Below, one piece after another: positions 7,223 to 59,781 of a stretch of 64,000 nucleotides of DNA. A model generated the notes under the pieces. It was not told the origin of the DNA. It saw nothing but the letters and a program-made list of their open reading frames with translations, and searched no databases. The stretch covers positions 1-64,000 of the forward strand of contig JAISLW010000268.1 of assembly GCA_031277105.1 (NCBI GenBank). The letters run 5' to 3'. This DNA comes from Planctomycetaceae bacterium. Lineage in GTDB: Bacteria > Planctomycetota > Planctomycetia > Pirellulales > Thermoguttaceae. Each line of letters begins with the position of its first letter. The first letter of the stretch is position 1. The position numbers and the translations under genes were made by a program.

Positions 7223-10200
7223 AATGTTAATGCGTTAAATTTTGACAAACCCGCTTTCTTATCGAAAATCCAGTAAATATTATTAGCGCAAAAGACGAGG
7301 TTTCCGCCGCCGCAGGCGGGGCTGCCGAGTACGAGTTCGGCGGGTAAATCGGTCGGCACCGCAGCGTCGTAACTGTAAGCGGACGACGTATCGTCATAAT
7401 AAACGTAATGCGACTTGAAATCGGCGTCCTTGTCGTTTTCGTTGCAACCGTTGACGGTGAGACATTCGCCCGCGTAAAAAATCATTATCGCCTTTGGTTG
7501 GTTTTCGGCGTCCCATCTGTTAGTCATCCAGCGTCCGACGACGTTATCTTGATGCGGGTTTGGTCTGTATTGTAATTCCTCATAGCCCCATCTTTCGGGG
7601 ATGCAGATATTGTTGTCGGCTTTGTTGCCGACCATGAATTTATCGGAAAATTCCACTACAAAGAAATCCTCAAAAGTGGGTTCGGCATCAGCTTCGGATT
7701 CGAGGTATTCGTTGCCTTCCTCTTCGCAGCACCAAACGTTGATTGGCATCGGGCCGCCGTAACGTCCGAGTTTAGAGGGGTCGCCTACTTCGACTTGTAC
7801 TTTTTCGCCGTCGATTTCTTGCTCTACCCATTTAGTGAAACCGAGTTGTTTAGCGATGTCGGCTTTATCGGGCGTAACAACGTCGCCCATTTTTGTTGTT
7901 GAGAAAATCTCTTCTCCGGCGTAATAAATTTTGGTTGTCGTGTAGTTCTGGTTTGATTGTTTGAATTGGATGAGCATATATTTTTGGCAGCATCGCATTA
8001 GCGGGACAGAGAGCGTAACTTCGTCGTCGTGATTCTGCGTCCATTCAGTAATTTTACCGCCGCCGTAAAATAAAATAGAACGCGTCGATAATGTATAAGG
8101 GCCGCTAGCGGGATCGTTTGAATCATAAGACGGGTTCTTTTGCGATAATTGAATAATAGCGTAATTAACCGCGTTGTTCTTACGTGAAGCGGAACAACAT
8201 TGAGCGCCTGCGCTAGTAGTTCGAGTATCAAATGTGAGTTCCTTATTATCGATTTTAATCGCTCGTCCTTTGTATTTTAGTACGGCTGTATATTGGCTAT
8301 CAATATCATTAGTCTTGCCGTAAATTGTGTAAAAATACATATCGCAAAGTTTAGTTGACCGGACGAAGCGACCGCAATATTTTTCGTGAAACGGGATCCA
8401 AGCGGTACGCATGAATTGCGATGTTTGTACTTCTTTCGGGCAGATTTCTTGTTCGCAATTAGTGTAGGTGTAACATTCGTAATCGCATCCCGACGCTTTA
8501 CCAGGCGCGAATTGCGGTCTATACTGTTGAACCGCGCACCATTCGTCGGGCATAAGCCGCTCGCAATCGCCCTCAAACTCGTCGATTAGTTCGTACTTGC
8601 TAGTTGAATGTTGATAAGTCCCGTTATCTACATGCTTGTCAAAACTTATTTCGTAAACTCTTATCGAATGCGTGCAGAAACTATCGGGCGGATAAATGTA
8701 ATAACCGTCGTCGCTACTTCCGCAAAGAGCGCAATACTCATCTGTATTTTCGTCCGGCTCAATTACGCCGCAAACTGGATGATCTTGTAATTTAGGCGTA
8801 GTGTCGATTACGGCGACTAATTGTTTGTAGCCGTCGCCGTCGTCTGGAATTTCATAATAACCCCAAAGGAACTGCGCAGAGTGAGTTGGAATAGTCGCTG
8901 TTTCGTCAAATATTTTAGCGCCGTCCGAGTCGTAATCTAAAAACCGGACTTTTGACACGTTGCCTGTAATTACTTCGTCAATACTGCTCGTACTAATTGA
9001 TTCGATAAAATGATGCCCGCGTTCATTTCTACAAATAGTGTTACAAATAAAAGCGCCTTCGTAATAAAAGCCGCCCATTTCGTCATTGCCGCATGAATGA
9101 CAATAGGGGCCGTAATTGCCGTGTATTTGGACTAATTCAGTGGTTACGCCGCCTAATTTGGGCATTATTTCAGTTAAGAATTGCGTACAATTGCAACCGT
9201 CCCATTGATCTTTACCGCAACCTTCAGGACGGTTGCCTACGCGCCAGCCGCTATAGCAGGTATAAGATGTAACATAATTCTGGTAATAAACCGGCTTGTA
9301 ATACGGAATTTGTTGAGAAAAATTCATTACGATGTCTTCAATAGAATAATCCTCTGGATAGCAAGTACTTTCACCAATGCCTCCGCCTGGTAAGGATAAA
9401 TCGTAAATATATCCGCGTTCCTCTATTGCCGCTCTGTTTTCTTCGCTACAAGCGCAACCGCTGCAACCGCCGCCGGTCGGAATTACGCCCATTTCTTCAT
9501 AACCGCGCCCGCCTGGATTTTCGTGCCAAATAATAGTCTCGATACCGGACGGCGTTTTAATTTTATATTGTAACTGTTCGCGAACCACTTGACCGGCGAC
9601 AACAAAAAACGCTTTAGAATCTTCAAATGAAATTAAAACTTTATCCGCTATTACTTCCTTACCGACCGATGAGATATAGTGATCTGGATACGCCGGATGC
9701 TGATAAAAAACCCACTTCATATTTTCCCCGTGTCCGCTGTTAGTCTGCATTCCGAAATTACTAGGAGATAGTAAGACCTTCTCATTTAAGCCTGAAATCC
9801 CTAATACGAGTCCGTATTTCAAAACGTCTAAACTGTATCCGTATGACGCGCCTTGATATGACCATTGCACTTCCTGCGAAACAACATAAGAGTCTCGCCA
9901 AAACTGCTCGCCAAAACCCATCTCGACCGTATCGGTAACAACGGCGCAAAGATGGTAGGCGGTATTGGCAGATGGCAAGTATAAAACTTCGGCGCCCGCT
10001 TTGTAGAGTTCGCCGTTTTCATAAACGTCGCCGTATCGTTTACTGTCGCCGGATAGACTGTAACTGACGACGAAGTAATCGGCTGTGTTTGAGTAGCAAT
10101 GAGAATGACAATCGCCGTAGGTTGTGCCGTTACCGGTTCTGACGCGTGCAATTTCACCTTTGGTCTGGTAAATTACAACCATCTGATAAGTGTCGCCGGA

Positions 10201-12347: not shown

Positions 12348-13820
12348 TTAGTCTTTGAGGGCGGCGCATTCGTAAGCGTCGCTGCCTCCGATAATGAGTA
12401 ATCTGTATCTGTTGTTTGTTATTCGTCTTTCGATTTCGTAGCTAATCGGGGTTGAATATCGGCTGCAAACGTAGCTTGATTTATAGCCGAGAAAACAATC
12501 GTTGTCGTCGTATTCAGGAATTTTGTCGCCGTTGTCGTCGAGTTCGTATTGAATTTGCATATAATTCATAGACGCGTTTCGGGTCGCGATTGAGTAGTTA
12601 AGCGGCAGCAAGTCAACGCCTCCGAGCATTGGAAATTTTATGTTGTTAATATCGGTAACGTAAAAGAGGGCGTAAATATCTTGTTCGATTATAGCGCCGT
12701 CTTCGTCGTAAAGCGGGGCTTTGCAAACGCCGTCTGTTTGCCAGTAAGTTGGGGTGTCGTCGGAGTCGATGGCGGGTTCTTGCCCGCGATCGTCGGCGCC
12801 GTCTTTGAGTTTCGGTCTGCCTTCCATCGGGGCGGTATATAGCGCCGGAGGATCGGATATAACGTAGTAGGTCAATGTTTTTGTTTCTAGTATTTGTTCG
12901 TCGTCGTCGTCGAGGGCGGGCGTGCCGTCCGAGTTTTTTTTGGGCGCGGTGTAGGACGCTGTTACTTGTTGTAGGTCGTCAAATTCGAGTCCGGCGACTA
13001 ATACTTCGGCGGGGTCGAGTGTAAGGCAGGCGACGTAATCGTAGTCGTAATCATCGTCGGTTGAGTCTTCGGTTTCGTAGCCGGTTCGATCCGATTTAAG
13101 AACAGCCCATCCTTCGGTTGACGCTTTAATTTTTTTTGCTTTTTTGTAAACTGGTTTCCCGTCCGAGTCAACTTTTGGCGTGCCGTCTGAATTTTTCTCT
13201 TGAGTTTTGTTGTAAGTTTTGCCGGTCAATTTAATTCGTCCCATGCAATTAAAGAAGTCGCGTCTTTTAGAGCGGTTTGAATCTGTAGCGTCGCTGGAGG
13301 AGGAGTCGTCCCAATCGTCTGGTTTAGTGCCGTCTGGTTGAGCGGTAGTATCCAAAGGGCAACGAACCGGCGCGACCAAAACGCCCGACGAAGGCGGCGG
13401 CGCCGCAGCCCCTCCCCCACCAAGAATAACTACCCAGTGTCCCCAGAGGTCTTGGGATAAGATGTATTTTTGATCGGTTGTTAATTCTGTCGTTGAGATG
13501 TTGAAGGCTCTTATTTTTATCTGCTCGCCATCAGTGAATTCCACTTCTTGCAACTCATACTCTATCATCTCCGGCGTTTTAATCGCAAAATCATCTTCCG
13601 TATAAAATCGATGCAAATTAAATTCATACGATTTAATTTGACCGCCACTATACGCAGGAACAGACTCAACCGGAGTCGCTACATAAACCCCATGCGATAA
13701 ATTGACCGATACAGACGATTTCGTCCTCGCATCAATTACCCGATTCCGATCCCGCTCTAATACGCCCTTTATCTTCGATATACTCTCAACCGATAACGTT
13801 TGCAAACGCTGCAACGACAT
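12348..13820 (-). CDS. Hypothetical structural protein with Asp-rich repeats
   Basis: DSDGTP / SDGKP / DDDDEQ repeats; located in tail gene run. Confidence 0.5.
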   Translation of the reverse strand: MSLQRLQTLSVESISKIKGVLERDRNRVIDARTKSSVSVNLSHGVYVATPVESVPAYSGGQIKSYEFNLHRFYTEDDFAIKTPEMIEYELQEVEFTDGEQIKIRAFNISTTELTTDQKYILSQDLWGHWVVILGGGGAAAPPPSSGVLVAPVRCPLDTTAQPDGTKPDDWDDSSSSDATDSNRSKRRDFFNCMGRIKLTGKTYNKTQEKNSDGTPKVDSDGKPVYKKAKKIKASTEGWAVLKSDRTGYETEDSTDDDYDYDYVACLTLDPAEVLVAGLEFDDLQQVTASYTAPKKNSDGTPALDDDDEQILETKTLTYYVISDPPALYTAPMEGRPKLKDGADDRGQEPAIDSDDTPTYWQTDGVCKAPLYDEDGAIIEQDIYALFYVTDINNIKFPMLGGVDLLPLNYSIATRNASMNYMQIQYELDDNGDKIPEYDDNDCFLGYKSSYVCSRYSTPISYEIERRITNNRYRLLIIGGSDAYECAALKD

Positions 13821-13960
13821 TTAATCCCCACACAATACGATTTTTTCTTTGACTAAAACTACAAATTTTTTTGACTACGATTTTTTTTTTGCAGGTTAAG
13901 TGGAACAGGAGGGACAAGTGAGACAATTTTTGTACAAAAAATCCGTTCTCTAACTTTCTA

Positions 13961-14060
13961 AACTGTTCGCAATTGAGTTTTCGTTTACCTTCGCCTGCCT
14001 AGCTTTCGGACGGCAGGCTTTGACGCTTTTAAATCGCTGAATTTCAAGTACGAGCAGTAT
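13961..14060. repeat. Palindromic repeat element copy A
   Basis: aactgttcgcaattgag...GCCTGCCTAGCTTTCGGACGGCAGGC...tttcaagtacgagcagtat with imperfect terminal inverted repeats. Confidence 0.85.
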
Positions 14061-14099
14061 AAAAATCTACACCCTACACCCTACGCCCTATTCCTAATT

Positions 14100-14543
14100 T
14101 TATCTGATTGGAAAATACGTTATTCTGATGTTCGCAATTGCTTTCGGGGCGTATAAATATAATTGTTCGCTGCCCGCAGGCTCAAACGCCGCTATACAAC
14201 CCGACCTTACACGCAATACCTCATTACACAACTCCGAACCTATCACTACATCAGCCGCTAACTCCGCCGCCTGTTCCTGATTAGTCAGATAAACAGGTCG
14301 CATCTTGCCCGTGTTGTTTGCAATTACTACCCAAACAGCGCCGCCATTCCAACCTTGCGGCAACAACGGATACTCCTTACTAAAACTTGAAACAGGCAAC
14401 GTAACCGTCCGCGCCGACGACATCACATCACCCTTAAACTCAAACATCCGGTCAACCGCTACCCGCAACGGCGCTTGATTGCCATCGCCATAATTACCCA
14501 CAACAGATAAAACCGTCGTCAACATATTACCAAAACGAACCAT
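14100..14543 (-). CDS. Hypothetical protein in tail module
   Basis: Open reading frame in the minus-strand structural run. Confidence 0.5.
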   Translation of the reverse strand: MVRFGNMLTTVLSVVGNYGDGNQAPLRVAVDRMFEFKGDVMSSARTVTLPVSSFSKEYPLLPQGWNGGAVWVVIANNTGKMRPVYLTNQEQAAELAADVVIGSELCNEVLRVRSGCIAAFEPAGSEQLYLYAPKAIANIRITYFPIR

Positions 14544-14614: not shown

Positions 14615-15187
14615 TTAATTTGTAGTGATCCACAAAATTGTGTTTTCGCTTTGGTCGCCTGTTTTTACTTTCAGATAATAACCGTCATACGGCAACGGCG
14701 AATATTCATCGGCAGGATGATAAAACTGACGATTGTCGTCAGCGTCAATTAACGGTATCTGATTCAATTGCAAATCATACAATTCAAACGAATACGTCAT
14801 TTGCGGATCATAAAAACCAAACTCGAAATTGTCCCTGTTGTCAGCAGACAATCTAAACTTCAAATAATATTCGCCGTTTGGATACGTTGTCAAAAATTTA
14901 TTTTCAAACGAGCCGTCGTTAATATCAGGCAACAACTCCGCAGTCGCAAAAGTTTCACCTAATCCTGCTGGCGTCGGCGGTTGCGGCTCTGGCTCTGGCT
15001 CTGGCTCTGGTTCCGGTTCTGGATCTGGTTCTGGCGTTGCTTGTAACCATCCTGTATCAATTAACGCTTGTACCGTATCCGCCTCCGTCATTACGTAATT
15101 ATCAGCACGGTCAATATAACGCTTGACCTCGCGTAATATCGCATCCGCATTTTCCCTATCTATATTTTTTTTTGTAGTTACACTCAT
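14615..15187 (-). CDS. Tail-fibre-like modular protein (anchor module + PE-repeat hinge + domain)
   Basis: N-terminal MSVTTKKNIDRENADAILREVKRYIDRADNYVM shared with 29291..30319; PEPDPEPEPEPEPEPEP linker. Confidence 0.6.
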   Translation of the reverse strand: MSVTTKKNIDRENADAILREVKRYIDRADNYVMTEADTVQALIDTGWLQATPEPDPEPEPEPEPEPEPQPPTPAGLGETFATAELLPDINDGSFENKFLTTYPNGEYYLKFRLSADNRDNFEFGFYDPQMTYSFELYDLQLNQIPLIDADDNRQFYHPADEYSPLPYDGYYLKVKTGDQSENTILWITTN

Positions 15188-22944: not shown

Positions 22945-24066
22945 ATGTTTAATCACGAATTTATCAAGAATCAAGAGACTTTGACCGTTTGTCAATTACT
23001 CAACAGTAATACTTTTATAATCCCAATTTACAAACGACCCTACGTTTGGCATAAACCACAATGCGAAACGTTGTGGAACGATCTGTACAATTTATTTGAA
23101 ACCGAAAAACAAAACAACAATAAACCTAACAAATCACATTGTTTTCCTGCCTGTTCTGACGAAAGTATTGACGATCAAGTTTACTCGCTTGGTTCTGTAT
23201 TTTTATCGATTCCAAATTTACACACTGACGAAGCGTTTAAATTAACTTTACCTAACGCCAGCGACCGACCGTATTGTATAGTTGACGGTCAACAACGTTT
23301 AATCACGATTTCATTACTCTTGCGGGCGTTGTGGCATGACGACTTGCAACAATACGTCGAATTTATACGCTGCTTTCAACGCTGCAATAAATACAACTTC
23401 AATGAATCGTTAGGTTCGCGTTTCTTGTTTAGCAATTTGGACTTGCGTTACGATTTAGATGAAACTTTGCAAACAGTCAAAGAACCCGAACTAACCCATA
23501 CGCTATATTACAAGAATTACAGTTACTTCAAAAATAAAATTGACTCGCTTTTTGATAAATTGGAAAATCGCAAAAAATTTATCAATACTATTTTGCACAA
23601 AACGTACTTTTCTAAAAATATTTACCCAAACGAAATTAGAGCAATGACGTTTTTTGAAACGCCAAAACATAAAGGTCTTGTCCAAACCGACGGCGATAAA
23701 CTTAAAATAAAACTCGCTAAACTTGCGTTAGAAGGGTCAATGACTACTTTTGCTAGTTTCGATAATTTTAGTTCAGCGTGGTGGCTTTTAGAATCAAAAA
23801 TTGACGCGTTACGTAATGCGTCAAATAGAAAAATAACGCTTAATAAATTGTTTCAGCGTTATATGATCGCATTACGCAAAAAACACAACGATACAACGCC
23901 GCTAGTCAAAATCAAAGATTTCTTTGAAGGTAACGTAAAAGATACGCAAAATAATAAAAGAAAAACAAACAAATACACATTTGAAAAAATCGGATGGTCA
24001 AACGTAATCACATCACTAGAACAAATAATAAACGAAATGACCTCACAATCACAACAACAAAAATAA
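22945..24066 (+). CDS. DUF262 (GmrS/GmrSD-like) protein
   Basis: FIIPIYKRPYVWHKPQCETLWNDLYNLF and YCIVDGQQRLITISLLLRAL. Confidence 0.85.
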   Translation: MFNHEFIKNQETLTVCQLLNSNTFIIPIYKRPYVWHKPQCETLWNDLYNLFETEKQNNNKPNKSHCFPACSDESIDDQVYSLGSVFLSIPNLHTDEAFKLTLPNASDRPYCIVDGQQRLITISLLLRALWHDDLQQYVEFIRCFQRCNKYNFNESLGSRFLFSNLDLRYDLDETLQTVKEPELTHTLYYKNYSYFKNKIDSLFDKLENRKKFINTILHKTYFSKNIYPNEIRAMTFFETPKHKGLVQTDGDKLKIKLAKLALEGSMTTFASFDNFSSAWWLLESKIDALRNASNRKITLNKLFQRYMIALRKKHNDTTPLVKIKDFFEGNVKDTQNNKRKTNKYTFEKIGWSNVITSLEQIINEMTSQSQQQK

Positions 24067-24082
24067 ATACATATCTTACTAT

Positions 24083-24688
24083 TTACATTTTACGTAATAC
24101 TTCAAGTCGCTTTGAGAGTTGTTGTAATTGCGCCGATTCTGTAACTCTATCTGATAATTGAATTATTTCGTCTATTTCGGCAAAGTCTGCACTTTTATTG
24201 TTTTTTGACAACGCAGCATATTCAACTTTCATTGCTAATTCTAACGTTTTTAATTTTTTAGCAAGAACGCCTTTTTCAATCATTATATTTTCATCTATCG
24301 CTCTTACTTTTATATAATCGTCGTCTAACAAATTCAATTGTTTGTAATAGAACGCATCAACTTCATTATATTTTTTTGCTATTTCGTCTTTTTGTTTCGT
24401 TAACATATTTGCTTGTTTTTGCAATTCTAATAATTCTTTGGTTCTTTGGCTTTTAATGGTCAATATTTGTTTTTGTAGATTATCTTTATCGATTGGCAAT
24501 TTTCTACGTTGCTCTTGCAATTCATTAAGTTTTTGTTTGCTTATTTCGTAATCTGCCATCGCAACCCGAAACCTAGCCAACTCTGCTGTTCCGTTAAACA
24601 CGCCTATTTGACTTATCCCCATACGTTCATGTTGATTTGCTTGTAAGCTTTCAAACATAGATATATCCGCAATATTTTGATTTCCCAT
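24083..24688 (-). CDS. NQN-ADIS signature family protein with coiled-coil tail
   Basis: MGNQNIADISMFESLQANQHERMGISQIGVFNGT then coiled coil. Confidence 0.85.
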   Translation of the reverse strand: MGNQNIADISMFESLQANQHERMGISQIGVFNGTAELARFRVAMADYEISKQKLNELQEQRRKLPIDKDNLQKQILTIKSQRTKELLELQKQANMLTKQKDEIAKKYNEVDAFYYKQLNLLDDDYIKVRAIDENIMIEKGVLAKKLKTLELAMKVEYAALSKNNKSADFAEIDEIIQLSDRVTESAQLQQLSKRLEVLRKM

Positions 24689-24838: not shown

Positions 24839-25828
24839 TCAACTAGATTTACACAACCTGTTTGTAAAACGTTCCTTGCTCTTACGTAATTCGTCCAAGT
24901 TATAGATAGAAACACGATCTACGCCAATATCCGCAATAACCATATCACAACAAACGCCAATAACAGACGATAAACCTTTAACACATTCTTTATTTGATTG
25001 CGTACAAAAAACTTCAGCGTCGATACTAACAAACGATCTAATTACTTCCGGTTCAGGATGATCATAACGATTGCCATAACCAACCGAAACAATCGCATAA
25101 TCCGTCTTGATATTATCAAAAAACCATTCGCGATCTCCTTTATTAGACCAAAAATTACCACCATGATGCGGAACAGTTAAAATCTGCACACGTTGCACGC
25201 CGTTATTATTGACAACTCTACGCCACGCTTTAACAGGAGCATCCCCAGAAAAAATAACCTTCTGCGTCTTAACCGTCAAAGCAATTACACCACACGTAGC
25301 ATTACTTACAGTCGTACTACTCGCAACATTTGTAGAATTACTCGTCAATTCAAGATTTCGTATAAAATACGGATGTAAGACAGAAACGCAAATATTTTTT
25401 TCATTATTTTTCCAAATATCGCCAGTATCGTGTACTTCTAAACGTTCAACTAATCTTTCCAAGTCAGAATTATCAGAAATAGCCTCTTTTATATCGGCAT
25501 ACACGGCAATATCTTCCAATTTACGATCTATCAATAAATAAATTTTATCAATACAACCACAAAAACAATCAAGAACATTTTTTACATCGCCTACATGATC
25601 AGCGTCATTATGAGACAAAATTAACGCTTCTATATGTTGTATATTGTGTTCTTTTAATAGAAGGATCAAAGGACTAACATCTTTAACTTCGCCTTTATCT
25701 TTTTCTTTAGGTCTATATCGTCCTGTGTCTATTACAATAGCACGAAAATCGCCCAAAAGAATAACTTGAGACGTACCCTGACCAACATTGACAAAACAAC
25801 ACGTAGCAACAATATCTGTATTACACAT
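24839..25828 (-). CDS. Metallo-beta-lactamase-fold hydrolase (ComEC-like MBL domain)
   Basis: VNVGQGTSQVILLG..VIDTG, LILSHNDADHVGD, SGDA, VPHHGG motifs. Confidence 0.85.
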   Translation of the reverse strand: MCNTDIVATCCFVNVGQGTSQVILLGDFRAIVIDTGRYRPKEKDKGEVKDVSPLILLLKEHNIQHIEALILSHNDADHVGDVKNVLDCFCGCIDKIYLLIDRKLEDIAVYADIKEAISDNSDLERLVERLEVHDTGDIWKNNEKNICVSVLHPYFIRNLELTSNSTNVASSTTVSNATCGVIALTVKTQKVIFSGDAPVKAWRRVVNNNGVQRVQILTVPHHGGNFWSNKGDREWFFDNIKTDYAIVSVGYGNRYDHPEPEVIRSFVSIDAEVFCTQSNKECVKGLSSVIGVCCDMVIADIGVDRVSIYNLDELRKSKERFTNRLCKSS

Positions 25829-25831
25829 AAT

Positions 25832-26545
25832 CTATTTCCAATATTCAGATTGCGTTATTTTAACAACGGGTATAGACTGAATGAACTTGTCAACATCCTC
25901 TTTCGAATACACTTTATGATTTGAACGTTTAACCTCAATTATTTTGACAAGTTTAGCCGTTTTACGCTTACACATTTTTTTTGCGCGAAAATACTCGCCA
26001 ATATCATAAGCAGATAATTCTTGCGGACAATTTGACAAATCAACTATATTTACATGACCATCCAACCACTCAATTTCAAATTTATCATCGTACTTCTTAA
26101 TCACTTTTCCTGTTTGCTCAAAGCACAAAAGAGTTTCAGGAATATCTACAAGTTTAACAAAAAATTCATACAACCTTTTTTCTCGCTCATCCCGTTCCCA
26201 ATGAAGTTTAGAATAAATTACCTGGAAATTGAGATGAAAAGATTCTTGCCATTTGTCTAACGCTTCTTTTCTAGTCTCGCCTACTCCTTGAATATCAGGT
26301 AGCACAAGAGGAGAACAAAAGCAAGAAAAATAATTTTCAGACTTCTGTTCTATAACAACACGTATTGCATTATAAAAGGAATAAGTATAATGATCGTGCT
26401 GAAACCCTTTTATCCATTTACTGTTAGTTTCTGGGATTAAAGGATATTCTTGTTTTGCATAACGAATATTTTCACATTCTATATTACAAAGATAGGGATT
26501 AGAATACAATTCGTATTCATTCTGATTTATTACTATTGTTGACAT
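25832..26545 (-). CDS. Hypothetical protein with HicB-like segment
   Basis: LPDIQGVGETRKEALDKWQESFHLNFQVI resembles HicB; 3-bp gap to MBL gene. Confidence 0.5.
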   Translation of the reverse strand: MSTIVINQNEYELYSNPYLCNIECENIRYAKQEYPLIPETNSKWIKGFQHDHYTYSFYNAIRVVIEQKSENYFSCFCSPLVLPDIQGVGETRKEALDKWQESFHLNFQVIYSKLHWERDEREKRLYEFFVKLVDIPETLLCFEQTGKVIKKYDDKFEIEWLDGHVNIVDLSNCPQELSAYDIGEYFRAKKMCKRKTAKLVKIIEVKRSNHKVYSKEDVDKFIQSIPVVKITQSEYWK

Positions 26546-26549
26546 CGTT

Positions 26550-27287
26550 TTAATTAAATAGTTTTTTACATTTATCTGTTAAATTATTTTCAAACATATC
26601 AAGTAAAAATGTATGAACATCATCCAACTCTACAATATAATTAGATGTATCACGTATGTTTTTCATACAAAACCAATTAAGTTGCAAAGTATTTGAAGTT
26701 TCATTAGCGCCTTTAGGCAATTGGCTAATTCGCAAATTAAGATCAATCCCATACTCTTCTTTAGAATTGAAATCTAAACCAATGTAAAAATTACTCAATC
26801 TTTCATGTACTCCTTTATCATAATAAAACCCGAACTGAAAATACTCATTAAACTTAAAATCTACGGTAGGTATAGAAATTACATCTAAATACAACAAACC
26901 AACACTCTTAATTATGTCTGCTTTCAGATATTTTTGATATTCAGCGACATATTGACAAACCATTTCTCGCACATCGGAATAACGCGGATAAATATGTCTG
27001 TCACGTGATCTATGACACCTTACATAATTTTTAGCGACTGTCAAAGAACGACTCATATCATCACTCCTACCCCATACTTCGCCTATTTGTTCTGCTGTAT
27101 AATCATCCCGTATTTGTCCCATTCTATTACCGTAATTACGTATTTTAAATTCTGGAAACTGCTCAATAAATTTATCGCCTAATTCTTTATTCCATTGTGG
27201 ACTCTCATTTGACAAATTAAAGCCGCAAATAGAGGCTACCTCCACAACAGGCGGATTCTTATATTTAACTTTATTTTGTTCACTCAT
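26550..27287 (-). CDS. TIGR04255-like protein
   Basis: N-terminal YKNPPVVEVASICGFNL; 4-bp gap to next gene. Confidence 0.5.
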   Translation of the reverse strand: MSEQNKVKYKNPPVVEVASICGFNLSNESPQWNKELGDKFIEQFPEFKIRNYGNRMGQIRDDYTAEQIGEVWGRSDDMSRSLTVAKNYVRCHRSRDRHIYPRYSDVREMVCQYVAEYQKYLKADIIKSVGLLYLDVISIPTVDFKFNEYFQFGFYYDKGVHERLSNFYIGLDFNSKEEYGIDLNLRISQLPKGANETSNTLQLNWFCMKNIRDTSNYIVELDDVHTFLLDMFENNLTDKCKKLFN

Positions 27288-27352: not shown

Positions 27353-27380
27353 ATTATATCAATTACACGAAACCAGTCAA
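27353..27380 (-). promoter_or_regulatory. Sigma70-like promoter of the TIGR04255/HicB-like/MBL operon
   Basis: Reverse strand TTGACT-N16-TATAAT; near-identical copy at 29204-29231. Confidence 0.65.
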
Positions 27381-27478: not shown

Positions 27479-28453
27479 CTAATCTGCATCTGATTGGATT
27501 TCATTCATGCAATACCCTTTTATAATATTACGTTGTTGTTCAAATTCAATCGGTATGTATTGGAAATTTTCTGCTTTGTTGCCCGCTATAAACGGTTTAA
27601 TGAAATCAGATTTTGTACTACTTGCAATCTCATCGCAAAACTTTAGTATAGAATCACAATCACAAAACGTAGCATTTTCCCATTTACCTTCAATTGTATT
27701 ATCAGAAAACATACTAATCCAGAAAACAGGATACGGCTTTCCAGAAAAAACGCCTTTTAATTCAGAACGTCCAGCATATCTTATTTTTGATCTAATAAAA
27801 GCAAAGTGTGTAATTGACCGTTCACTTACTAGCGAATCAGCCAACATCCATAACAAATCCAAAGAGACAACAAGTTTGCCCGATGTAGCAAATTTTGTCA
27901 ATCTAAAACCGCAGTCTATCGATATACCCACAAAATCAACAGAATAATCGTCAGGTTTAATTGCATTTGACGCATAATTTGGAATTAAGATAATACGATT
28001 ATTTACTGGAAAACCTGCAACCCACACAGTACCTTTACAACGCGGTTTTATGTCCTGTTTGGAAAGGACGATGTTGTAATCTGCGATTGTTTGATAGAAC
28101 GCTCGTATATGTTCCAACGTTTGTCTTGAATCGGTCAACGGAGCATAAAACAATATCTCATCGCCTACAAATTTCCACAAAGCAGGATGTAACGGTTTGT
28201 AAGTAAACGGATGACCGTCCAATATGTCATATTGTTGCAAAAATTGTAACGGAAAATTGATATAAAACGACTTAAACGTACTACACCAATCATCATCGCC
28301 TTGCGTTTGCCTTGCTTCAACTTTATACGCTGTCGACCCCTCAAAATCTACCGAAAAGAAAATACACAAACACCAACTATTTTCTTTTTCCGCTTTTCTG
28401 ACAAAGTCTTCCGATTCTTTTGTGTAATCGTTAGTTATTATTTTACAATCCAT
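27479..28453 (-). CDS. Pycsar-like class III nucleotide cyclase
   Basis: FFSVDFEGSTAYK, ALWKFVGDEILFYAPL, KGTVWVAGFPVNN, DFVGISIDCGFRLTKFA. Confidence 0.75.
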   Translation of the reverse strand: MDCKIITNDYTKESEDFVRKAEKENSWCLCIFFSVDFEGSTAYKVEARQTQGDDDWCSTFKSFYINFPLQFLQQYDILDGHPFTYKPLHPALWKFVGDEILFYAPLTDSRQTLEHIRAFYQTIADYNIVLSKQDIKPRCKGTVWVAGFPVNNRIILIPNYASNAIKPDDYSVDFVGISIDCGFRLTKFATSGKLVVSLDLLWMLADSLVSERSITHFAFIRSKIRYAGRSELKGVFSGKPYPVFWISMFSDNTIEGKWENATFCDCDSILKFCDEIASSTKSDFIKPFIAGNKAENFQYIPIEFEQQRNIIKGYCMNEIQSDAD

Positions 28454-28994
28454 ATTTTTCTTGTAGCGTTATTCGGTCTTTTATAATTTCAGGCGGTACT
28501 AGAAAAGCAATTACCAACGAGTTGATATTATTGTTATATTTTTTTTGTTTCGCTTCAAATAATTTCGCAGGCATTAAAAAACCAAGAGCAAACGTATTCG
28601 CTTCCTTTTCTATATCGTTATTTCCACGATGACACGCATAACACATGCCCTTATCAGAATGCAAAACGTAATGGGCGTACTCGTGAATCATCTTATACCG
28701 CTGCGTAATAAAAATCGCATGCAACGGAATAATAACATCAAACGTTTTGTCTTGATGGACATAAATTGTAGTATCAAAAATATCTTGATGCTCTTTGTAT
28801 TGCTGCATATCTATATAATGAATTGTACCGTTTTGCCCGCCAATAAAATCATGTAAAGCGCCCACGCCTAAAACAGAACTTGCATCAATACGACTTTTTT
28901 CCTCGCCCAATTTATAAATATCCTTTAAGTCGCAACCGCATTCGACCATCGGTTTATAACCCGATTTAATTTCCAAAAGTTCCGTTAATTTCAT
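28443..28994 (-). CDS. ImmA/IrrE-type zinc metallopeptidase
   Basis: HEYAHYVLHS zinc motif, EKEANTFALGFLMPA; overlaps cyclase by 11 bp. Confidence 0.8.
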   Translation of the reverse strand: MKLTELLEIKSGYKPMVECGCDLKDIYKLGEEKSRIDASSVLGVGALHDFIGGQNGTIHYIDMQQYKEHQDIFDTTIYVHQDKTFDVIIPLHAIFITQRYKMIHEYAHYVLHSDKGMCYACHRGNNDIEKEANTFALGFLMPAKLFEAKQKKYNNNINSLVIAFLVPPEIIKDRITLQEKYGL

Positions 28995-29203: not shown

Positions 29204-29231
29204 ATTCTACCAATTACACGAAACCAGTCAA
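29204..29231 (-). promoter_or_regulatory. Sigma70-like promoter upstream of metallopeptidase/cyclase pair
   Basis: Reverse strand TTGACT-N16-TAGAAT; duplicate of 27353-27380. Confidence 0.6.
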
Positions 29232-32636: not shown

Positions 32637-34460
32637 TTATCCTAACTTGCTAAATTGCATCGGACACGCTACCGCCAAACTGCCCGCAATATACAACATG
32701 TCCAACTCATTATACGAACCTTCCCTACGCACTATCCAATTCAACCTGCGTACAGATTGATCCCGCTCTTGCGGCGTAGCGTTAATACCAATAATACCCG
32801 TAGCATGAGCCAACTTCGTCTTCGATTCAGAAAAATTAGATTTGTCCAAAACTTTCGTCTTGTAACTAGCGGCGTCCGCTTGCGTCGCCGTAATAATTAA
32901 ACAATGTCTGACTTGCGATAATCCCCGCAAACGCCGCCACGTTTCGTCAACTTGATGCCGCTTTTCCAACCGACTGTCAACCGGAATCAATAAATCCGCA
33001 TAATCAATCACAATCACATCCGGCGTCCAACCCACACGCTCCCACGAATCCAATACCGACTCCAACGTCAACACCGATACCGTACTATTCGCATGAACCG
33101 ATAAACGCAACAAACCACGATCTATCGCCAACTCATTACAAGCCGACAACGCATCTTCCACATCCAAACCAAACTCAAAATATTCCTGAACCGGATCCGT
33201 TATAACATTACGCTTCCGGTCAACTTCCAAACAAGTCGGAAAACTATAATAACCCCGACGACGAGGACGCTTCGTTACACGCTGCATTAAACGCAACATA
33301 ATCTGATTCTGCGACATATCCCCTATCTCAAAAAACGCAACACGACGACGCTGCAAAACCGCACGCCACGCTACATCCAATAACATAAAAGTATTATGCA
33401 CCACAACGCCATCAGCAACAAAATTATGATGCGTTTTAATAGTCAAATCATACGTATCAAATACGCCAACCGACTCAATCAAAACAACCTCATCCCACAA
33501 AATATTGGAAGCGCCAAAGAAGTCTAATTTTTTTGGTACTGCAATAAAATCGCCTACCTCCAAAGAATCCAATTGTTTCCAACCGTCAGGCGTTAAATAC
33601 TTGTGATTCGCCGTTGTTGTAACTTTACGCCCCGATTTAGTCGTAACTTGAATACACTGTTTATCCCCATTATCCCAATACTCGTCAATATCAGCCTCAA
33701 CAAAATTTTGCGTAATCTCATTGTACGAAATCACCTTTTTATTGATGCGTTGACGAACTACTTCACGTACCGGATACATTGAACCGTCGGCAAAATATAC
33801 CAACGCGTCGCCTTTTACGCATTTTCCCATTTTTTCAGGCGCTAGAAACGCTACCAAGTTATCACGGCTAAATATATCGCCAAAAAATAACGACGCATCT
33901 TCCATGTTGACATTTTTCGATCCAAATTTTATCAATTGTTCGCTTGTTGCCGAAAACGCCAACCGAATCGCAGACTCGTCCTTTAACGGATCAATTCCGT
34001 AATTCACGCCTAACTCAATTTGACGGAATTTGTGCAAGTCCAATATCGCCGAACTCACGTCGCCGCCGCTCAATTTCGTTACTACACGGTCAACAGATCG
34101 CCGTAATTGCTGCGAATTAAAAAAATCATTCGCTACCTTAAACAAATAAACGTCGTCACCCCGAATACGTTGAGACTCCAATTCCAACGAAACTAATAAC
34201 GATTGCAATAAATCAATTTGACCTTGATTCAATTGCCGCCGTTCTACTTCCGCCGACAACGCCACTTGTATATCATCGCCAACAGGACGCTTGTACAAAA
34301 CATAAAAATTTATACAAACATCCGCTATAATATTCGCCTCAACCGTATCAAATAAACCAGACAAACCCGAAGCGGCAACAGACGAAACAAACGATAAATC
34401 CACCATCAAACCCGCCAATATACGACGCACCACTCCCGAATCAAAATCTTGTATCTCCAT
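32637..34460 (-). CDS. DnaB-like replicative helicase interrupted by mini-intein
   Basis: N-terminal DnaB-like helical domain, Walker A split APEKMGK/T, VIVIDYADLLIP Walker B, GIIGINATPQERDQ. Confidence 0.85.
   Translation of the reverse strand: MEIQDFDSGVVRRILAGLMVDLSFVSSVAASGLSGLFDTVEANIIADVCINFYVLYKRPVGDDIQVALSAEVERRQLNQGQIDLLQSLLVSLELESQRIRGDDVYLFKVANDFFNSQQLRRSVDRVVTKLSGGDVSSAILDLHKFRQIELGVNYGIDPLKDESAIRLAFSATSEQLIKFGSKNVNMEDASLFFGDIFSRDNLVAFLAPEKMGKCVKGDALVYFADGSMYPVREVVRQRINKKVISYNEITQNFVEADIDEYWDNGDKQCIQVTTKSGRKVTTTANHKYLTPDGWKQLDSLEVGDFIAVPKKLDFFGASNILWDEVVLIESVGVFDTYDLTIKTHHNFVADGVVVHNTFMLLDVAWRAVLQRRRVAFFEIGDMSQNQIMLRLMQRVTKRPRRRGYYSFPTCLEVDRKRNVITDPVQEYFEFGLDVEDALSACNELAIDRGLLRLSVHANSTVSVLTLESVLDSWERVGWTPDVIVIDYADLLIPVDSRLEKRHQVDETWRRLRGLSQVRHCLIITATQADAASYKTKVLDKSNFSESKTKLAHATGIIGINATPQERDQSVRRLNWIVRREGSYNELDMLYIAGSLAVACPMQFSKLG
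33393..33821 (-). other. Mini-intein (143 aa) in the helicase P-loop
   Basis: Begins C-VKGDALVYF, TANHKYLTPDGW block B, ends HHNFVADGVVVHN followed by Thr. Confidence 0.92.
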
Positions 34461-34720: not shown

Positions 34721-35689
34721 TCATTCCTCTACAGTACACATCGCATAATCAGCAGTAAATTGTTTTGTTGTAGTTGTTTGTTTTACTTGATTTAGATATA
34801 TTAGTTCTTGCTCAGCTGCTTTAAGAATAGGAATAACTTTTTTAGGCGACAATATTACCGGTTCAAATAAGGAATATGTACTATTTAATCTGCTTATAGG
34901 CGACCACTTAAAAGAATATTCCACTTCTAAATTATTAAATTCTGAATCTGTATCTGATTTGGCTATTTCCATTATAGATTCCATTATAGAAATCAATGAT
35001 CTGCACAAATCGGCATTAAATCCATTTCGATAATTTTTAACAATTATCGACCGTTCGCCATGTAACGTAGCATCAACGACGTCTTTTATACCAATAGCAA
35101 TACGTTCTGTTACTCTTCTTACCTGATTAGGTATATCTACTGATATACCAAAACTCCCTCTAAACGTATGCCCAAAAAGACAATTTTCAGCAATTTTTTT
35201 ACTGTACTTTACTGCATGATCCGATGGCATAAGAACATAATTTGTATTATTTGGTTCAACTTGATCTTTTACCATAAAATCCATTTGAACCGTTTTTTGT
35301 ATCATATCATACGTACTATTTAAAAAAGAGGTCATAAAATTCAAAGGAATACCATACATTCGACTTTTTTTATTAGTCGTAATAAATCGTTGTTGTAAAA
35401 TATCATAATCGTACAAAAACACTTCATTAAGAATATCAGTCTCGTCTACGCTTCTGACATTCGCTATACGTTGAATCGCACGTAACACAGCAAAATTTGA
35501 ATCAGAAAAAGAATCATCGACAGGCACATCAATAAGTAAACCTTTCTTATTGTATTGTAATGTCCCATAAGTAACAATATTCGGATTATCCTGTTCTATC
35601 TTTTTCCAGCCTGTGTTGGAAAGATATTTAGTAAACAGAGAAACGTCAGGCAATGATTCTGGCAAAATTTTAGTATTAAATTCAAACAT
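34721..35689 (-). CDS. Hypothetical protein paired with DUF4365 gene
   Basis: 322-aa ORF, 14-bp gap from DUF4365 gene. Confidence 0.5.
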   Translation of the reverse strand: MFEFNTKILPESLPDVSLFTKYLSNTGWKKIEQDNPNIVTYGTLQYNKKGLLIDVPVDDSFSDSNFAVLRAIQRIANVRSVDETDILNEVFLYDYDILQQRFITTNKKSRMYGIPLNFMTSFLNSTYDMIQKTVQMDFMVKDQVEPNNTNYVLMPSDHAVKYSKKIAENCLFGHTFRGSFGISVDIPNQVRRVTERIAIGIKDVVDATLHGERSIIVKNYRNGFNADLCRSLISIMESIMEIAKSDTDSEFNNLEVEYSFKWSPISRLNSTYSLFEPVILSPKKVIPILKAAEQELIYLNQVKQTTTTKQFTADYAMCTVEE

Positions 35690-35703
35690 AAATTATCAAC
35701 TCC

Positions 35704-36267
35704 CTATAAATTTTCCGTTTTTTCTCTTTCAACTTGTCTCAATTTTTCAATCTCTTCAATTATTACTTCAGGGGTAAGAATCTTTTCAAAATATACTGTA
35801 ACATTTGACTTGTTACTCGTTTTTGGCGTTTTATATGAAAAATATTTCCAATAACAACATTTACGTAAAATTAAACTTCCAGTAGAAATTGTTACCCATT
35901 CCGATTCATTACGAGGCAGTACAAGCAAAATTAACATAATTGGTTTATAACGCATACATAATTTATTATAGACATCAGCGTCAATAGTACAAGAAGCGCC
36001 TCCTTCACATTCTTTAGCATTTTTTGATGCTTTTAGTTGAAAGGGAATTTCTATGCCATCATCATAGAGTTTACCAGTATCATTATCCTTTGACACACTG
36101 AAAAAACGTCCGTCTGTACCATAATCAAATTCAGATTCATTAATAGTAATATTAACGCTCGCTTTTGCAGCTAAAGCCGACATGTAGGAACGATGAATCA
36201 ATTCTTCACGATGTTGTAATAGCAACATGATAAGATTATTACAGTTTATATCAAAATACGAAATCAC
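35704..36267 (-). CDS. DUF4365-domain protein
   Basis: AALAAKASVNITINESEFDYGTDGRFF..EIPFQLKASKNA; KPIMLILLVLPRNESEWV; CCYWKYFS pattern. Confidence 0.7.
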   Translation of the reverse strand: MISYFDINCNNLIMLLLQHREELIHRSYMSALAAKASVNITINESEFDYGTDGRFFSVSKDNDTGKLYDDGIEIPFQLKASKNAKECEGGASCTIDADVYNKLCMRYKPIMLILLVLPRNESEWVTISTGSLILRKCCYWKYFSYKTPKTSNKSNVTVYFEKILTPEVIIEEIEKLRQVEREKTENL

Positions 36268-44437: not shown

Positions 44438-44740
44438 TTATCGCCGTCTGTTTTTCACGGGAATTTTCTTTTCCTCTTCCTCATCGTTTTCGACTTTGTC
44501 TTTATCTTTGGAATTTTTGACTTTGTCGTCTTCTTCGTCTTCATCTTCGTTTTCAACGTCCTCGTCTTCATCTTCGTTTTTTACGTCTTCGTCTTCGTCG
44601 TCATTTTCAACATCTTTGTCTTTATCTTTGGAATTTTTGACTTTTTTGTTGAAAACGGACATTGAGCTGAATCCGAGCGAAGTATTAGCATCGCCTTGCA
44701 ACGCCTCAAAAGCGCTAATATCGGCTAATTCTATAGACAT
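44438..44740 (-). CDS. NQN-ADIS family variant with extremely acidic tail
   Basis: MSIELADISAFEALQGDANTSLGFSSMSVFNKK then DVENDDEDEDVKNEDEDEDVENEDEDEEDD. Confidence 0.75.
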   Translation of the reverse strand: MSIELADISAFEALQGDANTSLGFSSMSVFNKKVKNSKDKDKDVENDDEDEDVKNEDEDEDVENEDEDEEDDKVKNSKDKDKVENDEEEEKKIPVKNRRR

Positions 44741-47548: not shown

Positions 47549-47962
47549 CTAAAATGATTGTTCTTCAGTCTCCTTTGAAAGCGGAAGGTAATATGATTTA
47601 TACGAACCTGTAACGCCTAGTTTATTTAACCTGTCAAAAGTAGGTTTAAGTTTGCTTATAACGCTAGTTTTTTCATCCGTGTATTGATCGTTAAGTTTAT
47701 TTTCGTTTTCATCCATTAAGTGTCTATAATGCGTAGCCATACGGTAAATATCATTTTCTAGTTTTTTTACTTCGTCAATGAGTTTAGATATTTCTTTCAC
47801 ATCCTTGCGAGATATTGTACTTTGTTGTCTCTGTACTTTCCAAGTAACATTATTGACCGCTCGACCATTCTGAAAAGCGCCCATTTGACTACAAAACGAA
47901 TCATTAGCCTGATTCTGTAACGATTCAAATATCGCTATATCCGCAACATTTTGATTACTCAT
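47549..47962 (-). CDS. NQN-ADIS signature family protein
   Basis: MSNQNVADIAIFESLQNQANDSFCSQMGAFQNG; start at 47962 supported by taggaga RBS. Confidence 0.85.
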   Translation of the reverse strand: MSNQNVADIAIFESLQNQANDSFCSQMGAFQNGRAVNNVTWKVQRQQSTISRKDVKEISKLIDEVKKLENDIYRMATHYRHLMDENENKLNDQYTDEKTSVISKLKPTFDRLNKLGVTGSYKSYYLPLSKETEEQSF

Positions 47963-48230: not shown

Positions 48231-48677
48231 ATGAAAAACCAAAACATCGCAGATATTAGCGTATTCGAATCAATACAAACAGATCAACATACTAAAACTG
48301 GTATGAGTCAAATGAACGTATTTAACAACAATTGTTCGATTAAAAATAGCGCTCTTTTGGATAAAGCCGCTATGGACGTTAAAAAATATCGTGCAAAAGT
48401 AGATGCGTTTATCAAATTAGGCAATGAAGTAGCAAAACGACGTGAAAAATTCGTGTCAAAAGAACGCGACGCTATTTTTAAGTATGAAACGTCTGACGAA
48501 TACATTAAAGAACGCATACGAGTTTTTGGCGTGCTTGGCGCAAACCCTAACGATCCTGAAGCATTAGCCGACGAAAAACAAAGTAACGAAATAGCAACAG
48601 CCAGATACGAAGCAGAACAGAAACTTGCCGCTTTGGTAAAAAGCGATCACGCATTATTTTGGAGATATTCTTATTAA
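48231..48677 (+). CDS. NQN-ADIS signature family protein
   Basis: MKNQNIADISVFESIQTDQHTKTGMSQMNVFNNN; RBS gga. Confidence 0.88.
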   Translation: MKNQNIADISVFESIQTDQHTKTGMSQMNVFNNNCSIKNSALLDKAAMDVKKYRAKVDAFIKLGNEVAKRREKFVSKERDAIFKYETSDEYIKERIRVFGVLGANPNDPEALADEKQSNEIATARYEAEQKLAALVKSDHALFWRYSY

Positions 48678-48742: not shown

Positions 48743-49201
48743 ATGAAAAATCAAAACGTTGCCGATATTTCGGTATTTGAAAATTTACAAAACAACACTA
48801 ACAATTCTTTTGCCAGTCAAATGAACGTATTTAACGGCAATTGTTCAATTGAAAATAGCGCTATCTTTGACAAAGCCGAATCGTTAGTTAAAAAATTTGT
48901 CGCAGACATTGACTTACTTGTAAAAGAAGGTACAGAATTGGTAAAACTCCGAAATTCAGTCATAAGAATGCGACCTAAACGCAAAGATCAACGAGCAATC
49001 GGAGACATATTAGATAAGGAACAAAAACGAATTACACAAGCGTTAAAAGAAAACCCTAACGACCCTGAAGCGTTAGCCGACCAAAAACAAGCCCTATCTA
49101 TACAAAAGGAATTTAACGCCAGCGACAGGGATATGTTTAATTTTATAACAACTAAACCTAATAAAGAAGTATTTCTGGACTCCATTTATCAATATTTTTA
49201 A
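48743..49201 (+). CDS. NQN-ADIS signature family protein (tandem neighbour)
   Basis: MKNQNVADISVFENLQNNTNNSFASQMNVFNGN; shares NPNDPEALAD(E/Q)KQ with neighbour. Confidence 0.88.
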   Translation: MKNQNVADISVFENLQNNTNNSFASQMNVFNGNCSIENSAIFDKAESLVKKFVADIDLLVKEGTELVKLRNSVIRMRPKRKDQRAIGDILDKEQKRITQALKENPNDPEALADQKQALSIQKEFNASDRDMFNFITTKPNKEVFLDSIYQYF

Positions 49202-57473: not shown

Positions 57474-57830
57474 ATGAAAAATCAAAACATAGCGGATATT
57501 TCCGCATTCGAATCAATCCAAACAAACGGTCAAACCCAAAATACTACAAATTCAATGGCGATTTTCAACGATATTGCAGACGCTAAAAAAGCAGCAGAAC
57601 GCGTTACAAAAATCGCACAACAAGAAATTAACATACAAACAGAAGCCGACAACGCAATACAAGCGCTAACAGACGTATTACGCAAAGAACACAAAAGAAT
57701 TTACGAAATCCAAGATAACGCAGAACGCGAAAAAGAAAAACAACAACTCAAATCCATCATCGCCACAATGAAAACGCCAAAAATCTACGATAAATCACTG
57801 TTCATAAAAGGAATCGAAACGATACGATAA
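57474..57830 (+). CDS. NQN-ADIS signature family protein
   Basis: MKNQNIADISAFESIQTNGQTQNTTNSMAIFND; RBS ggaagga. Confidence 0.85.
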   Translation: MKNQNIADISAFESIQTNGQTQNTTNSMAIFNDIADAKKAAERVTKIAQQEINIQTEADNAIQALTDVLRKEHKRIYEIQDNAEREKEKQQLKSIIATMKTPKIYDKSLFIKGIETIR

Positions 57831-57923: not shown

Positions 57924-58961
57924 TTAAAGCAACGACAAAAACTCCTTGATGTCTAAAAAGTAACTCGGATACGCCTCGCATATATACTGTACGTCTTTGA
58001 CCGAGACCAGAACAATATCAACATCACCACTGACATAATCTGGATTCTGTTCACGTGATTTATAAAACGCCAACGCCAAATCTAACGTGTCAGAATTAAC
58101 GCCAAAAATATGAATTGTATGACGCTTAAAATCAACTTCCAAAATACAATAATCATAATTTGTACCAGACGATTCACGAACCGTTATAGGCAACGAAGAC
58201 AACTTTGCAATAAATGAATCTTTATTTAAGGCTGTCAATTTATTGTTTATTGTAGTTTCATCGTCGTTTGCGTAAATTTCTACAACAGGCATATTTTCCT
58301 TGACAGCAAACAGAGCGCTAACACACTTGAAAAAATCTGACCAGCCGTCAGCGTCATCCGTTTTACTTACCTTTAATCTCTTGCCGTAAACCTTATCAAC
58401 CGTTTCGATAGCCATCGCCCATAAATGTTGATAACGAGTCCGAATCTGTAACTCAAACCGCAAACCGTCAAATTCGGGTCGTTCCGAATTAACATTTTTC
58501 AAAACAAAATGAACAGAACGATAACCCGTTTTACACGGATGCATAACTAAATCACGAACCCGCTCAATGACAAAACAATCTGATAAAAATTCTTTTTGAC
58601 GCTCAATAAAATCAGTAAACAACCGATTATTGTCTGATTGCGAATTCGTAGGCGTAAGAACATAACGCATTCCGACTATATCTTGTATTTGCGATAATTT
58701 TAAGCGGGGAATTCGTTTTAATTTATCAATAATGGCTATTGCACGTTTTGCTCTGGAAGACACGGTTATATCAAAACCGCAACCGTTAGAATTAACTATA
58801 TCAGCAGGATTACACGACGTTTGGGGAATAAAATCAAACAAAAAATGAGTATGCAATTCCCGCCAAGAGTTCAATACGGTCAAAGCGTCCTCATTTTTTG
58901 GATCACTAATAAGCGTATCGCCCGCATCATCTATTTCTTTTAGATTGTATTCATTAATCAT
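57924..58961 (-). CDS. RelA/SpoT-domain alarmone synthetase-like protein
   Basis: SRAKRAIAIIDKLKRIPRLKLSQIQDIVGMRYVL; KTGYRSVHFVLKN; ELQIRTRYQHLWAMAIE. Confidence 0.85.
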   Translation of the reverse strand: MINEYNLKEIDDAGDTLISDPKNEDALTVLNSWRELHTHFLFDFIPQTSCNPADIVNSNGCGFDITVSSRAKRAIAIIDKLKRIPRLKLSQIQDIVGMRYVLTPTNSQSDNNRLFTDFIERQKEFLSDCFVIERVRDLVMHPCKTGYRSVHFVLKNVNSERPEFDGLRFELQIRTRYQHLWAMAIETVDKVYGKRLKVSKTDDADGWSDFFKCVSALFAVKENMPVVEIYANDDETTINNKLTALNKDSFIAKLSSLPITVRESSGTNYDYCILEVDFKRHTIHIFGVNSDTLDLALAFYKSREQNPDYVSGDVDIVLVSVKDVQYICEAYPSYFLDIKEFLSLL

Positions 58962-58977
58962 TAAATATATCTCCTAA

Positions 58978-59781
58978 CTAATCCCGTATCTTTAATTTAT
59001 TTATAATTTTTTTGTATGATTTGTTTTTTATTTTATTTTTTGCACTCATTTTGTCCAATTCATCTTTAATGAAAGGCAACAGTTGTTCTGCTAATCGAAA
59101 CATATTGGTAGAAAATAGCTTTGGTATGCCGTTGTTGTCTTCTTCGTAGTTAGATTTAGAATTGACGATTGCGGTTTCAATATCGAAAATGGCGTATCGC
59201 GGATCAATACCGCCTTTGACTTTACGGTTAAGATAGGTCTTAAACTCTTGGCTTATTTTAAGAGCATTTTCAGGAATGCTAAAGTCTTTGGGCTTCTGAT
59301 TGAATTTTCCGTAATAAAGCCAAATTTCCAAACAAGAATTACTAACTATCAAAGAGATATTTAACTCTTCGCATTTCGGTTTAATTCTCAACAAATCATT
59401 CATAAAATGATCTACGTCAGACACGATGAAAATATTATCCGGTTCGTCGTCTTGACTTGATTGGTATCGTCTTTGTTCGTCTTCGGCTTTTTGTAACAAG
59501 CCGTCTGGATGCAATTGATTGGGATCAGCGACAAAACTAATTTTTATTCTGCGGAATTCGTCCTGTCTTTCAATAATTTTGAAATACTTCTTTTCGCGTA
59601 CTTCACCGCCGGAAATAATTACAAAAAAAGTTTTAGGCGATTTCACGCCAGATACTTTTTTGTGATTTACGTCCACAACATTAACGGGCATAACCGAAAG
59701 TTCTGAAACGACAACATCCGTTTTTTGTGCTTCCTGCCCTAATACAAGTTTTTCAGAAATTGGTTTTGTGTAACTTCTCAT
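58978..59781 (-). CDS. rloB: RloB-like protein
   Basis: FVIISGGEVREKKYFKII; IFIVSDVDHF; LIVSNSCLEIWLYY. Confidence 0.75.
   Translation of the reverse strand: MRSYTKPISEKLVLGQEAQKTDVVVSELSVMPVNVVDVNHKKVSGVKSPKTFFVIISGGEVREKKYFKIIERQDEFRRIKISFVADPNQLHPDGLLQKAEDEQRRYQSSQDDEPDNIFIVSDVDHFMNDLLRIKPKCEELNISLIVSNSCLEIWLYYGKFNQKPKDFSIPENALKISQEFKTYLNRKVKGGIDPRYAIFDIETAIVNSKSNYEEDNNGIPKLFSTNMFRLAEQLLPFIKDELDKMSAKNKIKNKSYKKIINKLKIRD

Follow-up and report, generated by a model that had tools for sequence, protein, structure and literature searches.

A predicted class III cyclase and a CapP-like peptidase form a conserved gene pair that is probably an antivirus signaling module related to but distinct from Pycsar

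Introduction

A 64,000-bp stretch of DNA from a member of the Planctomycetota, referred to here as the window, carries a cyclase-like gene that overlaps a gene for a zinc peptidase, which raises the question of what such a pair does. A reading of the sequence alone (the sequence-only reading) took the cyclase to be Pycsar-like and suggested that the pair is a variant cyclic-nucleotide defense module. The window is part of a 171,649-bp contig that contains terminase, tape-measure and replication genes (gene names from translations) and that, judged from this gene content, is a phage or prophage genome. No published account of the pair was found in the open-license literature searched.

The gene pair and its surroundings

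The pair and its associated elements are located in the window as follows.

28443-28994, minus strand: M78 peptidase gene, first of the pair, 183 aa (Pfam PF06114, E = 2.2e-11)
27479-28453, minus strand: cyclase gene, second of the pair, 324 aa (AlphaFold pLDDT 92.5; Foldseek match 1wc4)
28443-28453, minus strand: 11 bp common to the end of the peptidase gene and the start of the cyclase gene (from the sequence, stop codon counted)
29204-29231, minus strand: promoter-like element TTGACT-N16-TAGAAT upstream of the pair (consensus likeness)

Both minus-strand open reading frames and their overlap of exactly 11 bp agreed with the sequence-only reading. The overlap indicates that translation of the two genes is likely to be coupled, and an RBS-like GAGGAG is located just 5' of the peptidase start. 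From consensus likeness, the sole basis here, we infer a promoter role for the element at 29204-29231. Its 28-mer occurred only there and at 27353-27380 (expectation from shuffled sequences, 0), and its 24-mer core had only these two sites in the whole assembly. The second, nearly identical element precedes the next operon (24839-27287, minus strand), which encodes a TIGR04255 protein, an unmatched 237-aa protein and a ComEC-like protein of the MBL fold that weakly matches the 6A-MBL, LmuA and PDC-M48B models. Since the pair and this operon start with the same kind of promoter-like element, the operon may be a second, coregulated defense operon.

Two other features of the phage genome were observed. 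In the translations, intein-like insertions were apparent in the terminase-like (315-2174) and replicative helicase-like (32637-34460) proteins, both on the minus strand. At least 10 otherwise unlike small phage proteins have a common N-terminal leader, approximately NQN(V/I)ADISxFESLQ...SxMxVFN, which might target them to the capsid or mark them for processing. The leader-bearing genes are listed below.

24083-24688, 44438-44740 and 47549-47962, window, minus strand
48231-48677, 48743-49201 and 57474-57830, window, plus strand
8591-8809, 13424-13705, 13739-14227 and 14657-14968, locus L147, minus strand

Conservation and spread of the pair

Relatives of the cyclase were collected from genomes (the best 80 of 157 matches) and from viral contigs and were reduced to 93 representatives with <80% identity; their gene calls were mechanical and the start codons are approximate. 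The peptidase gene was located directly upstream on the same strand in 63 of the 93 representatives (the genome part being the best 80 of 157 matches), in the same order as in the window. The 30 representatives without the peptidase belonged mostly to two clades, chiefly of Alphaproteobacteria, and at least one further representative without it was cut by a contig end. Presence of the peptidase required 6 changes on the tree, compared with 25.7 when the labels were shuffled. The genes flanking the pair showed no preferred orientation (33 plus and 26 minus upstream; 27 plus and 34 minus downstream), and the divergence of one protein tracked that of the other (pairwise identities correlated at 0.72; Mantel test, 0/1000). 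Since the gene order recurs, the flanks are unoriented and the proteins codiverge, the cyclase and peptidase are a conserved two-gene unit beyond chance.

Paired members were found in about seven phyla (Pseudomonadota, Spirochaetota, Verrucomicrobiota, Planctomycetota, Actinomycetota and Fibrobacterota, together with Clostridioides phages). The family occurs on phages, including Leptospira phage LE1 and Clostridioides difficile phages phiC2 and phiCD27, as well as on plasmids and chromosomes. In an independent sample of 300 genomes from the phylum of the window, the cyclase was found in only two further genomes, each of which had the pair.

The cyclase

Three motifs contain the predicted catalytic and base-reading residues of the cyclase.

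28331-28348, minus strand: DFEGST, residues 36-41, with the first metal-binding Asp, D36 (in 93 of 93 representatives)
28157-28177, minus strand: WKFVGDE, residues 93-99, with the base-reading K94 and the second metal-binding Asp, D98 (conservation)
27899-27937, minus strand: DFVGISIDCGFRL, residues 173-185, with the base-reading D173 and the transition-state R184 (conservation)

D98 and R184 were each present in all 93 representatives, position 94 was Lys in 90 and Arg in 3, and position 173 was Asp in 88 and Glu in 5; the scan patterns included part of GxxxDxGF(R) and W(K/R)xxGDE, so that the selection itself accounts for some of the invariance there. D36, K44 and W56 were outside every scan pattern, and D98, K94 and R184 were outside the genome-scan pattern. 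The positions of D36, D98 and R184 aligned with those of a known-type cyclase (hhalign).

No meaningful match to the cyclase was found among the Pfam, NCBIfam and PADLOC models, and searches with the cyclase as a single sequence against the PDB, the three model collections and viral contigs yielded nothing useful. In the 92 members of the family alignment, the cyclase was likewise unmatched by Pfam. The family is uncatalogued, lying outside the models of all three collections. An extra C-terminal domain was observed in some cyclases: two alignment members carry a NUDIX domain, and PDC-S07 matches were obtained for the cyclases of L118 (7908-9290) and L122 (1971-3371), both on the plus strand and both with this extra domain and a PycTM gene at the locus.

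The profile search of the PDB gave only a weak match to Rv1900c (E = 0.025), with D173 aligned to an Asp of that enzyme, and the predicted fold was therefore used for structure comparison. The AlphaFold model, built from the 92-member alignment, had a pLDDT of 92.5. Its best Foldseek match in the PDB was CyaC (1wc4; E = 4e-9), Pseudomonas aeruginosa CyaB (3r5g) was also matched, and TM-scores to the targets reached approximately 0.75. By its residues and its modeled fold, the protein is a class III nucleotide cyclase whose active site is intact and which is predicted to be active. K94 and D173 correspond to the base-reading pair of adenylate cyclases, and judged from these two residues the most likely product is a cyclic purine, for example cAMP.

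The peptidase

The sequence-only reading had recognized the partner as an ImmA/IrrE-type zinc peptidase from its HEYAH motif, and this was borne out by a match to Pfam M78 (PF06114) above the gathering score.

28671-28685, minus strand: HEYAH zinc-binding motif, peptidase residues 104-108 (conserved in the paired peptidases)

The domain contains HExxH (H104, E105 and H108) and the downstream Glu E129; H104 and E105 were present in 62 of the 63 paired peptidases and H108 and E129 in all 63. PADLOC capP (8e-11 for the window peptidase) was the best model for the peptidases tested. The AlphaFold model had a pLDDT of 91.4, and the nearest solved folds were CapP (7t5t; E = 6.5e-4) and then PprI. 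Structure prediction, named in the sequence-only reading as a check for both proteins, thus gave a class III fold for the one and a nearest likeness to CapP for the other. The peptidase is 183 aa long with a helical end, and the PprI and CapP chains are 248 to 278 aa long. The GAF-like C-terminal domain, which PprI needs for activation by single-stranded DNA (PMC10904395), was not found in the model or by fold comparison, as the peptidase is too short to hold it. No recognized nucleotide-binding domain was found in the peptidase either, which counts against its being an effector.

Relation to Pycsar

The proposal that the cyclase motifs are typical of Pycsar was not upheld. The PADLOC PycC models gave no match with E < 1 for the window cyclase or three relatives, although they matched a putative PycC encoded next to the Pycsar effector PycTM on a plasmid (4.6e-7); PycTM loci of the window's own phylum, taken for control PycC sequences, had no adjacent cyclase. 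The uridylate cyclase AnPycC (8jsz) was only 29th in the Foldseek ranking (E = 1.8e-7). The base-reading residues have been shown for BcPycC, EaPycC and AnPycC (PMC11224242), and K94 and D173 of the family differ from them; the pyrimidine-reading residues of these enzymes were absent from the window cyclase. Because these residues differ and the PycC models are unmatched, it seems best to place the family on a branch of its own within the class III cyclases, outside Pycsar by the tests made.

A PycTM gene was the immediate neighbor in 6 of the 63 paired representatives, all six above the Pfam cutoff.

L018, L021 and L108: PycTM upstream, same strand as the pair
L120: PycTM downstream, same strand as the pair
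L118 and L122 (phiC2/phiCD27 type): PycTM downstream, convergent to the pair

The motif scan detected no second cyclase in these six loci. For scale, of 151 whole genomes from the phylum of the window, only 7 had any PycTM match, and a clear PycTM was encoded elsewhere in only 2 of 42 searched pair-bearing genomes. The only paired peptidase with a broken HExxH, in L075, comes from a genome with an unlinked PycTM, a single case that hints at PycTM replacing the broken peptidase. At the window locus there was neither PycTM nor PycTIR, and no PycTM was found in the assembly (86% complete). The view that the peptidase stands in the place of a transmembrane effector does not extend to the whole family, since six relatives have both; the peptidase is kept intact in PycTM loci and so is more than a mere substitute for that effector. 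A small transmembrane protein as a general third component was considered and found unconvincing: by a hydropathy rule, such proteins were encoded by 9 of 120 adjacent genes and by 25 of 583 distant genes, and six of the nine were PycTM.

Defense setting

Several genes of the phage matched defense models.

22945-24066, window, plus strand: GmrSD N-terminal-domain protein (Pfam E = 5.5e-20; HEC-06 and Orf5 matches)
34721-36267, window, minus strand: PDC-M02A/PDC-M02B candidate defense pair (E = 2e-37 and 3.9e-28)
57924-61094, window, minus strand: matches to AbiLi (E = 1.5e-77) and AbiLii (8e-16), then a PDC-S33 protein
17904-19329 of L146 (C529:101904-103329), minus strand: complete Kiwa, KwaA and KwaB (directly downstream of the second copy of the pair)

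The PDC-S33 match (1.3e-71) that follows AbiLii reads like a RelA/SpoT-type synthetase. The same contig carries a second intact copy of the pair (C529:103451-104963) with its reading frame open, and Kiwa is located downstream of this copy on the same strand (KwaA, E = 1.7e-38; KwaB, E = 1.9e-65). Neighbors of the relatives, as a plain listing of matches, hit restriction, Druantia, ShosTA, MADS and similar models. The phage appears from these matches to carry a battery of defenses, and the cyclase-peptidase pair would most simply be one of them. Of the cyclic-nucleotide defense module first suggested, the intact cyclase, the coupled zinc peptidase, the conserved pairing and the defense-rich setting have been retained, but the motifs are not specifically those of Pycsar.

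Proposed mechanism and alternatives

The pair is probably an antivirus signaling module, related to but distinct from Pycsar. The working scheme is Pycsar-like, with a cyclase and a nucleotide-gated effector. Infection by a competing phage would activate the cyclase, which would make a cyclic mononucleotide, in all likelihood a purine one, for example cAMP. This nucleotide would act on the coencoded peptidase and, where present, on the PycTM membrane effector, and the peptidase would then cleave a cell or phage protein so that phage growth stops. The search of the window's assembly (86% complete; the host of the contig is uncertain) revealed neither PycTM nor a cNMP_binding protein, so that among linked genes in the window the peptidase alone is a candidate effector. 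A defense module with a core of cyclase and CapP-like protease, the peptidase downstream of the signal and PycTM as an optional effector, is our tentative preference, held at somewhat less than even confidence. It is favored by the pairing, the codivergence, the intact catalytic residues, the class III fold, the PycTM and Kiwa neighbors, the defense-model matches next to relatives and the L075 case; the intact peptidase kept beside PycTM, the 30 representatives without a peptidase and the relatives that adjoin phage repressors argue against it. The narrower proposal that the M78 peptidase is itself an effector gated by its partner's cyclic mononucleotide, which would make the pair a new cyclase-protease immune class, possibly using a cyclic purine, is possible but unlikely.

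The peptidase might instead work upstream of the cyclase, as a CapP-like sensor or regulator. Activated by single-stranded DNA or by some other sign of damage, it would cleave either a repressor or a cyclase inhibitor, and the cyclic nucleotide would then act on an effector that is PycTM in some loci and otherwise an unlinked or unrecognized protein. CapH and CapP have been reported to control immune operons, Pycsar among them (PMC13373217), and the likeness to CapP in fold and PADLOC model, followed by PprI, the promoter-proximal position of the peptidase gene and its retention beside PycTM are all consistent with such a role. Against it, a CapH-like repressor is not consistently adjacent (HTH matches in about 6 upstream and 2 downstream neighbors), the GAF-like domain is missing, and the overlapping genes suggest coproduction rather than transcriptional control. 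A regulatory peptidase is thus possible but unlikely. We regard as improbable a lysogeny or induction switch like ImmA/ImmR of ICEBs1, in which the cyclase would report the cell state and the peptidase would cleave the phage repressor. Such a switch would account for the CI/S24-type repressor genes just upstream in the Treponema loci L048, L059 and L098, the CI-type HTH gene just upstream in L102, the CI-type repressor near the pair in LE1 and the location of the phiC2 pair in the integrase region, but a repressor is lacking next to most pairs, no regulator adjoins the window pair, pairs are also found on chromosomes, and the PycTM and Kiwa neighbors would be left unexplained. The same neighbors argue against ordinary cAMP signaling, in which the cyclase would feed CRP-type receptors of the host and the peptidase would be incidental, as do a peptidase that is conserved, catalytically intact and codiverging with the cyclase and the lack of a cNMP_binding protein in the window's assembly. 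This last explanation is improbable as well, even though the K/D base-reading residues, the two alphaproteobacterial clades without the peptidase and the cNMP_binding proteins encoded by 41 of the 42 pair-bearing genomes that were searched agree with it.

If the preferred defense module is real, a widespread cyclase family that is invisible to Pfam, NCBIfam and PADLOC joins nucleotide-signal immunity, and unexplained genes of the well-known phages LE1, phiC2 and phiCD27 gain a candidate function. Whether a class III cyclase controls, or answers to, a CapP-like protease becomes a testable question. If the product is cAMP, the boundary between housekeeping second messenger and immune signal would need to be redrawn.

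Comparison with known systems

Among known systems, CapH plus CapP provides the nearest solved fold and the best PADLOC model for the peptidase, which has the CapP-like core. The arrangement differs in that the peptidase gene overlaps that of a cyclase and does not stand ahead of an operon under repressor control; no HTH gene, such as an adjacent CapH repressor, is located beside the window pair, and HTH neighbors are few in the relatives. With the class III adenylyl cyclases CyaC, CyaB and Rv1900c, the family has in common the fold, the two metal-binding Asp residues, the transition-state Arg and the K/D pair, at approximately 15% identity. The family is set apart from them by K44, W56, W93, the LKG and YP residues and a helical C terminus, and D180 stands where class III cyclases usually have the ribose-orienting Asn.

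ORF1/ORF2 of Leptospira phage LE1 and p41/p42 of C. difficile phage phiC2, whose records assign no function, are members of the same pair, and the annotators of phiC2 had remarked on the likeness to LE1. The phiC2 type, unlike the window pair, has a C-terminal NUDIX domain and an adjoining PycTM gene. With Pycsar, the family has in common a class III cyclase as the likely signal maker and, at the loci described above, PycTM as a neighbor; the constant partner of the window's family is the peptidase instead of PycTM or PycTIR.
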